Positions 29,791 through 34,982 of a DNA stretch of 64,000 nucleotides are shown here, one piece after another. Location: assembly GCF_007830515.1 (NCBI RefSeq), contig NZ_VLKT01000042.1, forward strand, positions 1 to 64,000, written 5' to 3'. Below the pieces are notes generated by a model that saw nothing but the letters and a program-made list of their open reading frames with translations, was not told the origin of the DNA and did no database searches. A program made the position numbers and the translations under genes. The DNA is from Mesorhizobium tianshanense (GTDB lineage Bacteria > Pseudomonadota > Alphaproteobacteria > Rhizobiales > Rhizobiaceae). Every line of letters starts with the position of its first letter. Positions within the stretch are counted from its first letter, which is position 1.

Positions 29791-30143
29791 TCAGAATACC
29801 AGTACCTTGTCGGCAGCGAGCGTCACGGCAGCGAGTTCCGCCATGCTGCTGCGTCGCGCGCCAGCCATCATCTCGGTGTCAGCCAGGCCGCGCGCATCCA
29901 TGCAGGTGCCGCAGAGGAACACCTGTCCCTTGCCGGCAATCACCCCCTTCAGCATGCGCTCGACATTGTAATAGCCGTCGGAGTCTTTTGGCCCGCCTTC
30001 GCGGCCACGACGGCGTCGGCCATCAGGAACACGGTGACGGCGGTTCCGGGCTCGTTCTTGAGGAGAGCAAGAGCAAGGCGCAGGCCGTTGTAGCACCGCT
30101 CGGTACCATAGGGCGGGTCATTCAGAATGAGCAGGATCTGCAC
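29791..30143 (-). pseudogene. DsrE-family protein gene with a one-base frameshift
   Basis: The N-terminal part reads from a GTG at 30141-30143 (QILLILNDPPYGTERCYNG) and ends in a frame that continues KAGQKTP. The C-terminal part (DGYYNVERMLKGVIAGKGQ, then FLCGTCMDARGL) is in another frame. The join is at about 29980, where one base is missing from what should be KTPDGYYNVERM. Both halves together give a full-size DsrE domain of about 117 residues with the conserved Cys pair. AAGGA precedes the GTG. DsrE proteins carry or transfer persulfide sulfur. Either the gene is inactivated or one base is missing from the sequence. Confidence 0.8.
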
Positions 30144-30224
30144 AGGCGTCCTTTCTTCGGCCCTTCGACCGGGCTCCAGTCGGAAGGCGACTCCGGCAAG
30201 CATAGATCGTTCGACAAGGACGTC

Positions 30225-32633: not shown

Positions 32634-33374
32634 TCAGGCCGCCGCCGCAGCCAGGGCGGAATTGGCGGCCCGGAGCGCAGCGGCCTCGGGCGGAGCCGGC
32701 GGAATCTCGGCGAGCATGAAGCGGATGAAGGCGGCTTCGTCCTCGATCCGGAGGGCCTCGTTGTGGCGTTTCTCGAAACCGATGGTCGACCAGGGCTTGC
32801 CGCTCAGGCGCCGGCCGCAGACCGAGCCGGCATAGGCGCCGGGGAGCACCTCGACATGATCGGGAAGAGCCTTGAGCCGACCGGCGCTGCGAAAGAGATC
32901 CCTTGCGCCTTGCTCGGCGCTGACGGCGAGTTCGGTGCGGCCGAGATCGCCGACCATCAGCGTGTGGCCGGTCAGCACGAACCACGGCTCGTCGGCACGC
33001 GTGCGGTCGCTGACGAGAAGGCAGATGTGCTCCGGCGTGTGACCGGGCGTGTGCAGGACGGTTGCGGTGACGTTGCCGAGCGAGAGGACCTCTCCGTCGC
33101 GCATGCCTTTGAACGGGAACGCAACATCCGCCTCCGCCCAGAGCACGTATGCGGCGCCCGCCGCTTCGGCGAGCGCGCGGCCGGCGGAGAGATGGTCGGC
33201 ATGAACATGCGTGTCGACGACGAAGTGGATGCGCATGCCGGCGGCTTCGGCGGCGCGCAGGTAGAAATCGATGTCGCCGGCCGGATCGACGACGGCTGCG
33301 GCTGCCTTGCCGCCGCAACCGAACAGGTACGAGATGCCGACTGGATCGGTGTGAAGGAATTGGCGAAGGATCAT
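32634..33374 (-). CDS. Metallo-beta-lactamase-fold hydrolase, persulfide-dioxygenase-like
   Basis: 246-residue MBL-fold protein. It has THVHADH at 55-61, HTPGHTPEH and GDLGRTEL, as in ETHE1-type persulfide dioxygenases, which oxidise glutathione persulfide to sulfite using one iron bound by two His and one Asp. The C-terminal segment PGAYAGSVCGRRLSGK lacks the His usually found in the matching PxHxxGS segment. The ATG at 33374 is preferred (GAGGAG upstream) over the longer 33413 reading, which would cross the operator. It is divergent from the ArsR-rhodanese gene. Confidence 0.85.
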   Translation of the reverse strand: MILRQFLHTDPVGISYLFGCGGKAAAAVVDPAGDIDFYLRAAEAAGMRIHFVVDTHVHADHLSAGRALAEAAGAAYVLWAEADVAFPFKGMRDGEVLSLGNVTATVLHTPGHTPEHICLLVSDRTRADEPWFVLTGHTLMVGDLGRTELAVSAEQGARDLFRSAGRLKALPDHVEVLPGAYAGSVCGRRLSGKPWSTIGFEKRHNEALRIEDEAAFIRFMLAEIPPAPPEAAALRAANSALAAAAA

Positions 33375-33403
33375 GGTCTTGCGCTCCTCGCTACGAAAGG
33401 CTA

Positions 33404-33431
33404 AAACATTCAATCATTCCGCTGAATGTTT
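33404..33431. promoter_or_regulatory. 28-bp inverted-repeat operator between MBL and ArsR-rhodanese genes
   Basis: Perfect 9-base arms AAACATTCA (33404-33412) and TGAATGTTT (33423-33431) are separated by 10 bases. The centre lies in the 72-bp divergent gap, 15-43 bp from each start codon. Spacing and AT-rich arms are typical of ArsR/BigR-type operators. The ArsR-rhodanese protein is the obvious ligand, giving control of both directions. Confidence 0.78.
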
Positions 33432-33446
33432 CACTGAGGAGAAGCC

Positions 33447-34115
33447 GTGTCAAGCACCGGACCAAAACAGGCGATCTACGCGAGCCTTGCCGAAGTGGCT
33501 CAGGCGCTCGGCCATCCGCATCGGCTCGAGCTTCTGGAGCACCTCGCGCAGGGGGTGCGCAGCGTCGAGGACCTCTCCGCGCGAGCCCATCTGAGTTTCG
33601 CCAACACGTCGCGCCACCTGCAGATCCTGCGGCGGGCGCGCCTCGTCGAGACGGAGCGCCGCGGCAAGCACGTGCTCTACAGCCTCGCCGGCGACGCCGA
33701 GGTGGTGGCGCTGATCAAGGCGCTCGGCCGCGTCGGCGAGCGAAACGTGGCCGAAGTCGACCGCGTCATGGCCGACTACTTCCGCGCTCGCGATGCGATG
33801 GAGCCCGTGTCGCGAGACGACCTCGTCTCGAGGCTGCATGACGGCATGGTCACGGTTCTCGACGTGCGGCCAGAGGATGAGTTTGCGGTCGGACATCTCC
33901 CGGGCGCCCTCAACATCCCGCTGGCCGAGCTGGAGCGTCGCTTAGGCGAGCTACAGGCGGATCGGGAAGTGATCGCCTATTGCCGCGGCCCCTATTGCGT
34001 TCTCTCGTTCGAAGCGGTCGCCGCCTTGCGAGAGCGGGGCTATCTCGTCCGTCGGCTCGAGGACGGCTATCCCGAATGGAAAGCCGCCGGCCTGCCGGTC
34101 GAAACGGCCGCCTGA
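33447..34115 (+). CDS. ArsR-type regulator fused to a rhodanese domain
   Basis: 222-residue fusion. Residues 10-95 are a winged-helix ArsR domain (helix-turn-helix near SFANTSRHLQILRRARLV). Residues about 122-218 are a rhodanese domain with the active-site loop CRGPYC (C179 to C184). The whole protein has only these two Cys; the ArsR part has none, so the classical thiol or metal sites of ArsR/BigR are missing. A persulfide on C179 or a C179-C184 bond is the likely signal. The start is GTG 33447 with GAGGAGAAG upstream. It is divergent from the metallo-hydrolase and followed by a nucleoside phosphorylase. Confidence 0.9.
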   Translation: MSSTGPKQAIYASLAEVAQALGHPHRLELLEHLAQGVRSVEDLSARAHLSFANTSRHLQILRRARLVETERRGKHVLYSLAGDAEVVALIKALGRVGERNVAEVDRVMADYFRARDAMEPVSRDDLVSRLHDGMVTVLDVRPEDEFAVGHLPGALNIPLAELERRLGELQADREVIAYCRGPYCVLSFEAVAALRERGYLVRRLEDGYPEWKAAGLPVETAA

Positions 34116-34139
34116 AACAGAACACGCGGAGCGAGTCCC

Positions 34140-34982
34140 ATGGATCAGAAGACCGCATGGCCGATCGTGAACGACAAGGACCATGCTTCTCCTTCCGTGT
34201 TCCGGCCGGAGGCGCTGTTGCGCGAGGCGCGCCGGCAGAAGGGACTGCCGCTTGTCGCGGTCCCTCTGGTGTGCGTCCTCGATCCCGACGGCGACGTGGT
34301 GCGGCACCTCAAACTTGCAGGACAGGGCCGCGCACACCAGGGGTGGGCTTGTTATCATACCGAGCTTCTTGTCTTCGATCTCGATGGCGTCGGAGAGATC
34401 GGCATCGTCGGCTGCGCGGTGGGCGCCTCCTTTGCGGTGCTCGTGGCCGAGCAGCTTTTTGCGGCCGGCTGCCGGCTGCTCGTCAGCGTCACATCCGCCG
34501 GCCAGATCACCGACAACGGACCCACGCCCTACTTTGTCCTGATCGACCGCGCTCTCCGGGACGAGGGGACGAGCTATCATTATCTGCCGCCGGCAATCTT
34601 CGCCGAGGCGCCAGACGCAAGCCTTATCGCTCGCATCGAAGACGCTCTGTCGGGGCTTTCCGGCATTGTCGTCCACCGCGGCTCGACCTGGACGACCGAC
34701 GCTCCTTACCGCGAAACCGAGACCGCGATCGCGTCCGCGCGGGATCTGGGCGCCCTCGCCGTCGAGATGGAAGCCGCGGCTTTGTACGCGTTTGCCGCGG
34801 CTACACACCGCCCTGTCGTGTGCTTTGCGCATGTGACGAATGCCATGGCGCAAACCGAGGGGGATTTTGAGAAGGGCGAGGCGAACGGAACAAAAGCGAC
34901 GCTCGCGGTCATCGCCGCAGTTGCACGAGTTTGGTTGTCCTCCATCAAAGCCGAACGGCATGCGGGAGCAGGCGGGACATAG
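34140..34982 (+). CDS. Nucleoside phosphorylase family protein
   Basis: 280-residue protein of the PNP/UDP phosphorylase superfamily. Motifs include IGIVGCAVGASFAVLVAEQL, LLVSVTSAGQIT near the phosphate site and VEMEAAALYAFAA for ribose and catalysis. The N-terminus is longer than in classical uridine phosphorylases. It lies 24 bp after the ArsR-rhodanese gene and is probably co-transcribed. In the sulfur context the substrate could be a thio-nucleoside, but this is a guess. Confidence 0.83.
   Translation: MDQKTAWPIVNDKDHASPSVFRPEALLREARRQKGLPLVAVPLVCVLDPDGDVVRHLKLAGQGRAHQGWACYHTELLVFDLDGVGEIGIVGCAVGASFAVLVAEQLFAAGCRLLVSVTSAGQITDNGPTPYFVLIDRALRDEGTSYHYLPPAIFAEAPDASLIARIEDALSGLSGIVVHRGSTWTTDAPYRETETAIASARDLGALAVEMEAAALYAFAAATHRPVVCFAHVTNAMAQTEGDFEKGEANGTKATLAVIAAVARVWLSSIKAERHAGAGGT

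Follow-up and report, generated by a model that had tools for sequence, protein, structure and literature searches.

A predicted sulfur-sensing repressor of Mesorhizobium tianshanense that joins an ArsR domain to a rhodanese domain, with its candidate sensing dithiol in the rhodanese loop

Where might an ArsR-type repressor sense sulfur when its DNA-binding domain contains no cysteine? The question is raised by a gene in Mesorhizobium tianshanense (assembly GCF_007830515.1, contig NZ_VLKT01000042.1, positions 1 to 64,000 of the forward strand; this whole stretch of 64,000 nucleotides is called the window here). The gene (33447-34115, + strand) begins with GTG and encodes a protein of 222 amino acids, ArsR-Rhd, in which an ArsR winged-helix domain free of cysteine (approximately residues 12-95; 33480-33731, +) is followed by a rhodanese domain (residues 123-214; 33813-34088, +). 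Divergent from it lie genes for a protein of the metallo-beta-lactamase (MBL) fold resembling persulfide dioxygenases (PDO) (32634-33374, -) and for a transporter of the major facilitator superfamily (MFS; PF07690; 31341-32630, -). The two cysteines of ArsR-Rhd, C179 and C184, are the only ones in the protein, and both stand in the active-site loop of the rhodanese domain, CRGPYC (33981-33998, +), as the first-pass annotation of this DNA had noticed. That annotation went on to propose that sensing had moved from the ArsR fold to the rhodanese domain, and this relocation is well supported at the level of sequence, where the cysteine pattern of the family, a conserved operator and a context of sulfur genes all fit it. 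Our reading is that ArsR-Rhd is probably a sulfur-sensing repressor, which would leave the DNA once its rhodanese dithiol has been modified by sulfane sulfur.

Both domains are recognized by family models. HTH_5 (PF01022) matches residues 24-68 with 39.2 bits against a cut-off of 22, which places the protein in the ArsR superfamily, and NCBIfam NF033788 (HTH_metalloreg) matches residues 15-83 with 71.4 against a cut-off of 55. The C-terminal part is matched by PF00581 (63.8 bits, E=2.2e-17) and has the rhodanese fold, with fold matches to 3tp9, 3gk5 and YgaP (5hbo), together with a cysteine in the catalytic loop. The AlphaFold model of ArsR-Rhd (mean predicted local distance difference test, pLDDT, 89.7; predicted template modelling score, pTM, 0.55) is confident within the domains and not in their arrangement. 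In this model, C179 comes immediately after the strand 174-178 and C184 immediately before the helix 185-196.

Two kinds of search supplied the homologues. Scanning named genomes for peptide patterns gave 324 relatives, from which 80 loci were kept, and the nearest named relatives at this locus belong to Mesorhizobium; one of the scan peptides contained C179, so this set alone is biased for that residue. Whole-genome searches gave matches in 15 of 101 genomes of the family (E<=1e-30) and 47 of 398 genomes of the phylum (E<=1e-25), with the own genome counted in both, and 58 of the 61 places found outside the window were used (G242, G262 and the second place of G194 were left out). After removal of repeats, the final set comprised 136 distinct proteins plus that of the window, or 137, of which 57 came from the genome searches alone. 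C179 and C184 are both present in all 137, including 57/57 of those found without peptide patterns. No cysteine other than these two occurs in 109 of the 137, and no further alignment column holds cysteine in more than six proteins. The loop CRGxxC is found in every row of the first conservation table (150 rows, repeats included), and A177, Y178, C179, R180, G181 and C184 are invariant in the 75-row alignment used for modelling. CRGxxC is also present in 11/11 two-domain plasmid proteins examined from Pseudomonadota, Actinomycetota, Bacillota, Bacteroidota and Deinococcota; these were chosen by hand, the records being eight of the 60 listed (from a total of 196) and five of 30 MBL records, two of the latter five having a single-domain ArsR instead of the two-domain protein.

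The positions at which BigR-type repressors carry their sensor cysteines correspond to residues 31 and 98 of ArsR-Rhd (codons 33537-33539 and 33738-33740, +), and cysteine occurs at either of them in 0 of the 137 proteins. Glutamate is present at position 31 in 130, at position 98 in 130, and at both in 124. The correspondence comes from two single-domain BigR/SoxR-like ArsR proteins of the own genome with cysteine pairs at 42/108 (L003) and 33/99 (L007), in whose alignment with the window protein Glu31 and Glu98 fall exactly on both cysteine positions. What can be stated firmly from these alignments is the absence of a dithiol between helices alpha2 and alpha5. The BigR family model gives the two proteins 97.7 and 90.9 bits and ArsR-Rhd 50.8 bits, against a cut-off of 155; the model is strict, as 97.7 is the best score in the own genome and its matches in 11 of 14 control genomes also stay at or below the cut-off. 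Membership of ArsR-Rhd in the BigR family was rejected on the absence of the defining alpha2/alpha5 cysteine pair. The region noted for the two BigR/SoxR-like genes is G000:C4:22986-33917 (within L219), and an open reading frame (ORF) beside one of them presumably encodes a YeeE-like transporter.

The distribution of cysteines also bears on whether ArsR-Rhd could sense a metal or metalloid, with the CX4C pair as a binding site for thiophilic ions such as As(III) or Hg(II) and the MFS protein serving as an efflux pump. Such a role would fit the HTH_metalloreg match, the name 'metalloregulator ArsR/SmtB family' that NCBI gives to most records among the matches listed, and three neighbours seen in single records, namely merA, an 'arsenic resistance protein' and an ArsO-like flavoprotein (below cut-off). 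However, the window protein has no cysteine in residues 1-115, and so no CXC in alpha3, and no histidine or cysteine in the long helix 83-115; the classical Cys/His metal site of ArsR/SmtB proteins in alpha3 or alpha5, the site types considered, is thus absent. In addition, the recurrent partners of the gene are of sulfur type, although the partner types sought across loci did not include ars and mer genes. We regard a metal sensor as very unlikely.

The first-pass annotation had reported a perfect 9-bp inverted repeat in the gap to the MBL gene, and this was borne out: the arms AAACATTCA and TGAATGTTT (33404-33412 and 33423-33431) are 100% complementary and enclose a 10-nt spacer, so that the predicted operator occupies 33404-33431 (no strand), with the core ATTCA-N10-TGAAT at 33408-33427. 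The divergent MBL ORF as listed (32634-33413) starts at a TTG that adjoins the left arm of the repeat, which places this arm at the very beginning of the ORF. We favour a start at the ATG at 33374, given the alignment of the family and an upstream GAGGAG; this start leaves an intergenic gap of 72 bp containing the repeat. By itself the inverted repeat is only mildly unlikely: among 2000 versions of the 161-base region made by dinucleotide shuffling, 29 contain a repeat of 9 bp whose arms are <=20 apart. The inverted repeat is significant because it is conserved across relatives. Of 82 non-redundant upstream regions, 59 contain ATTCA-N10-TGAAT with no more than one mismatch, against a mean of 1.14 and never more than 4 in 50 rounds of shuffling; an exact copy is present in 37 of the 82 (shuffle mean 0.06). 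When all 137 distinct genes are counted, 75 have an exact operator and 109 have one with at most one mismatch. A spacer of 10 is the best of those from 4 to 16, followed by 14 (26/82) and 6 (18/82), signals that we read as an effect of the repeated ATTC/GAAT steps inside the site. Conservation extends to distant relatives: for the 45 below 62% identity, the site is within one mismatch in 29, has two mismatches in 7, and has three or more in 9.

The own genome (7.86 Mb) contains a single exact operator, that in the window, and since no other exact copy exists, ArsR-Rhd is suggested to be a local repressor. Other matches with up to three mismatches lie on C35 (one site, matched on both strands) and C60. 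The C35 site adjoins an ORF that we take to resemble an ectoine synthase, and was set aside as a chance match.

We propose that ArsR-Rhd would act as an autoregulated local repressor, bound at ATTCA-N10-TGAAT in the gap that separates its gene from the divergent MBL-MFS pair. Sulfur would be sensed by C179 and C184, the dithiol in the loop of the fused rhodanese, rather than by an alpha2/alpha5 dithiol of the BigR/SqrR type. Sulfane sulfur, whether as persulfide, polysulfide or possibly thiosulfate by way of rhodanese chemistry, would load C179, which would become a persulfide or form a di- or polysulfide bridge to C184. A changed arrangement of the two domains might then release the protein from DNA, allowing the MBL enzyme and the MFS exporter to be produced; these would in turn process and remove the sulfur species. 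Repression, and release as the direction of the switch, are proposed because of the analogy with the bigR operon (PMC5823870). A more far-reaching and tentative version, which we consider possible at best, is that ArsR-Rhd represents a second, independent sulfur sensor of the ArsR superfamily with a sulfurtransferase site of its own, controlling both an MFS exporter and an MBL subfamily whose iron site would be rebuilt from three histidines instead of two histidines and an aspartate. The MBL protein would be a new kind of enzyme acting on persulfide or polysulfide, and the MFS protein would export what it makes. If this second solution exists, rhodanese catalysis, rather than the reactivity of bare thiols, would determine which sulfur donor is used.

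The genes around ArsR-Rhd were compared in 70 non-redundant loci of >=5 kb, with eight partner types sought within 4 kb. MFS genes were the most frequent partner among these types (32 loci), followed by MBL (25), DsrE (19), a fatty-acid-hydroxylase-type protein (14), a DUF2938-type protein (8) and a VTT-rhodanese fusion (7). In loci with >=60% identity, MFS is near 26/39 and MBL near 21/39. A search from the MBL side placed 6 of 8 order-wide matches beside ArsR-Rhd, the window's own included, while the other two were ORFs of about 480 amino acids, 37% and 39% identical. Across 29 loci, pairwise distances are correlated between ArsR-Rhd and MBL (r 0.76), ArsR-Rhd and MFS (0.62), and MBL and MFS (0.70), with 0/999 permutations as high. 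Because shared species history contributes to such values, they are not read as interaction; the correlation shows common inheritance.

The three genes also occur together in records of Acidithiobacillus ferrooxidans, Rhodococcus jostii, Cytobacillus and Deinococcus. In Hydrogenophaga, ArsR-Rhd, MBL and MFS are accompanied by a separate rhodanese, and in Hymenobacter an MFS gene follows ArsR-Rhd. The R. jostii MBL carries two further rhodanese domains, and that of Thermomicrobium is similar to it in length and looks alike by eye, while in Leptospirillum a single-domain ArsR stands between MBL and MFS. Overall, rhodanese is a modular part across these loci. In a further group of relatives (L158, L159, L174, L176, L178), a divergent DUF2938-type membrane protein (PF11158 for L158) replaces the MBL-MFS pair. 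A divergent fatty-acid-hydroxylase-type membrane protein is present in L146, L147, L149, L151, L152 and L166 (the type being that found for L149), with a VTT-rhodanese fusion as the next gene in L149 and L166.

The frequency of DsrE raises the question of whether the rhodanese domain might be loaded by a carrier, such as a DsrE/Tus-like protein or a cysteine desulfurase, rather than sensing free persulfide. DsrE is near 19/70 loci as counted above and at times (L143, L171) stands right next to ArsR-Rhd; a gene resembling cysteine desulfurases is near 22/118 loci, though near only 2/70 of the non-redundant ones. Yet at least 32 of 61 MBL-bearing loci have no DsrE match within 4 kb, and the reading frame of the window's own DsrE is broken. 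Loading by a carrier thus seems quite unlikely to us. The window's DsrE-like gene (29794-30167, -) is split over two reading frames, with the junction close to 29980, by a frameshift or a sequencing error; in the relatives L029, L030 and L032, DsrE is in a single frame.

Several observations weigh against a sulfur-sensing repressor of the kind proposed. None of the eight partner types is near 8 of the 70 non-redundant loci, and below 60% identity MBL is near 4/31 loci and MFS near 6/31, so that the MBL-MFS module is concentrated in the closer relatives. The operator is not found within one mismatch in 23 of the 82 non-redundant upstream regions, the own genome contains no second good operator in a pattern search with correct spacing, and a scan with the sigma-70 consensus found no promoter in 33300-33560. 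With a pTM of 0.55, the predicted structure says nothing firm on how the ArsR and rhodanese domains communicate. Glutamate at position 31 is possibly ordinary among ArsR proteins; for that reason no firm meaning attaches to the glutamate pair, and position 31 is not necessarily a site where a sensor cysteine was specially replaced. Finally, in lactic acid bacteria the neighbours are thioredoxin, thioredoxin reductase (TrxB), a DsbA family protein and a disulfide-reductase-like flavoprotein, and therefore also fit a general sensor of thiol oxidation.

The last point belongs to a broader alternative, in which stress from disulfides, peroxide, hypochlorite or electrophiles would simply link C179 to C184 by a disulfide bond, with the rhodanese fold serving only as a scaffold for a reactive cysteine. 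Two conserved cysteines four residues apart in a loop are what such a dithiol redox sensor would use, and rhodanese loops of this kind hold a reactive cysteine. The relatives on Lactiplantibacillus and Leuconostoc plasmids (L184, L187) have the loop CRGRLC and stand beside those thiol-redox genes, and a Paenibacillus relative is flanked on both sides by thioredoxin genes. By contrast, the PDO-like MBL, DsrE and rhodanese-type partners found in four named genera and in many loci provide a sulfane-sulfur context, and the catalytic-loop cysteine of rhodanese is kept in all 137 proteins. We therefore judge general redox sensing unlikely, and a sulfur-sensing repressor with its dithiol in the rhodanese loop remains our preferred reading.

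The model of the MBL partner (pLDDT 87.1, pTM 0.87; without metal) has its best fold matches in 3tp9, 3r2u (which we take to be CstB), 5ve3-5, 4ysb and 4chl, and thus shows an ETHE1/CstB-type fold, and the HxHxDH and TPGH motifs are retained. The first-pass annotation had called the gene persulfide-dioxygenase-like, but a standard enzyme of this type is not what the metal site suggests. The iron ligands of ETHE1 are His79, His135 and Asp154 (PMC4383860). The window protein, with residues counted from TTG, keeps His69 and His125, while the place of the aspartate is taken by His150 (GHTLMVGDLGRTEL; codon 32964-32966, -) and that of ETHE1 His195 by Ala193 (codon 32835-32837, -), so that the iron-ligand set His, His, Asp of ETHE1 and CstB is not present. 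This is the rule in the family, as 63 of 70 evaluable distinct MBL proteins have both His150 and Ala193. The 70, the window included, derive from 75 rows and 72 distinct proteins, with L055/L059 (cut frame) and L053 (broken) excluded; seven matches of <150 amino acids (L180 twice, L053, L060, L084 and L088 twice) had been left out beforehand. The exceptions beside ArsR-Rhd are L137, L160, L161 and L162, which keep the aspartate, and L182 (R. jostii), which has glycine at the ligand place; L138 and L139 also keep the aspartate, and no ArsR-Rhd was found with them. In plasmid records, the residue is aspartate in Leptospirillum, Hydrogenophaga and Thermomicrobium and histidine in Acidithiobacillus, Cytobacillus, Deinococcus and Thiothrix. 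The MBL partner looks like a protein with a derived metal site inside the persulfide-dioxygenase lineage, and dioxygenase activity therefore cannot be assumed for it.

The first-pass annotation had called the one-component design unusual, but the family as a whole is widely distributed and has been overlooked. In addition to the 47 genomes of the phylum, a search of plasmids at E<=1e-20 gave relatives in 196 records, with >=80% of the query covered in 195; these records come from several phyla, and Lactobacillales genera top the list. In our literature search, whose coverage did not extend to preprints or to most subscription journals, none of the titles and abstract openings listed pointed to work on an ArsR-rhodanese sensor. 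The large ArsR network of 2023 excluded proteins of more than 150 residues (PMC10509353), and the family is for this reason unclassed in it. If ArsR-Rhd does sense persulfide, such sensing would have arisen more than once in the ArsR superfamily, and the protein would allow one to ask, in a natural system, if a catalytic domain can set signal specificity. The MBL partner, with histidine for the aspartate ligand, would likewise allow a direct test of the metals and reactions that its fold supports.

Other genes of the locus can be described more briefly. The first-pass annotation covered 32634-34982, and the third gene within this range is a nucleoside phosphorylase-like ORF (PF01048; 34140-34982, +) that begins 24 nt downstream of ArsR-Rhd. 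None of the NCBIfam models listed for its product is matched above cut-off. A gene of this type is near 26/118 loci and 5/70 non-redundant ones, and is also annotated beside ArsR in Bosea; a part for it in the sulfur response has no support beyond close relatives. Further out on the minus strand are genes for an EF-hand protein and a SHOCT protein, the DsrE-like frame and a cysteine desulfurase-like gene.

Among known systems, NCBIfam TsoR (NF045707) is an ArsR-type regulator to which ArsR-Rhd is only a weak match (46 bits against a cut-off of 115), and TsoB, a rhodanese fusion, is likewise matched weakly. The N-terminal DNA-binding fragment 1-100 of the mycobacterial ArsR protein Mb0332, the one part with a solved structure (2kko, 3gw2), is among the best matches of the ArsR domain in both fold and sequence, with 34% identity over 92 columns to 3gw2, and Mb0332 may be a mycobacterial member of the ArsR-rhodanese family. 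We take Mb0332 to be Rv0324, with a C-terminal rhodanese. Rv0324 has been reported in bedaquiline tolerance, with no sensing mechanism given in the text consulted (PMC9480834). On the side of the enzyme, the CstB, PRF and ETHE1 dioxygenases (3tp9, 3r2u, 5ve3, 4chl) have their fold and the HxHxDH and TPGH motifs in common with the MBL partner, which differs from them in the histidine at the aspartate ligand and the alanine at ETHE1 His195.

The closest functional comparison is with BigR, SqrR, SoxR, sHdrR, YgaV and HlyU, which belong to cluster 4 of the ArsR network (PMC10509353) and have the ArsR fold in common with ArsR-Rhd. According to that paper, cluster 4 contains every ArsR protein known to sense reactive sulfur species, and all known persulfide-sensing ArsR proteins carry the alpha2/alpha5 cysteine pair (PMC10509353); the characterized ones listed in another source have two conserved cysteines (PMC12423496). 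BigR-type proteins are single-domain with the cysteine pair in alpha2 and alpha5, whereas ArsR-Rhd has glutamate at both places and its dithiol in the fused rhodanese. The SqrR operator was deduced as ATTC-N8-GAAT (PMC9774250); the ArsR-Rhd site has the same half-sites with a spacing of N12, 4 bp longer, and thus departs from SqrR-type spacing. BigR-type repressors control genes for sulfurtransferases, dioxygenases and transporters (PMC10509353), and ArsR-Rhd similarly adjoins a PDO-like MBL gene and a transporter gene. In the bigR operon, BigR is encoded with the sulfurtransferase-dioxygenase Blh and a TauE-related transporter, and it is released by H2S, polysulfide and glutathione persulfide (GSSH), with formation of a Cys42-Cys108 bond (PMC5823870). 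That operon and the ArsR-Rhd module share a repressor, a sulfurtransferase domain, an ETHE1-like MBL and a transporter (PMC5823870), but in the window the sulfurtransferase is carried by the repressor and not by the MBL protein, an MFS protein takes the place of the TauE-related transporter, and the metal site of the MBL protein is altered.

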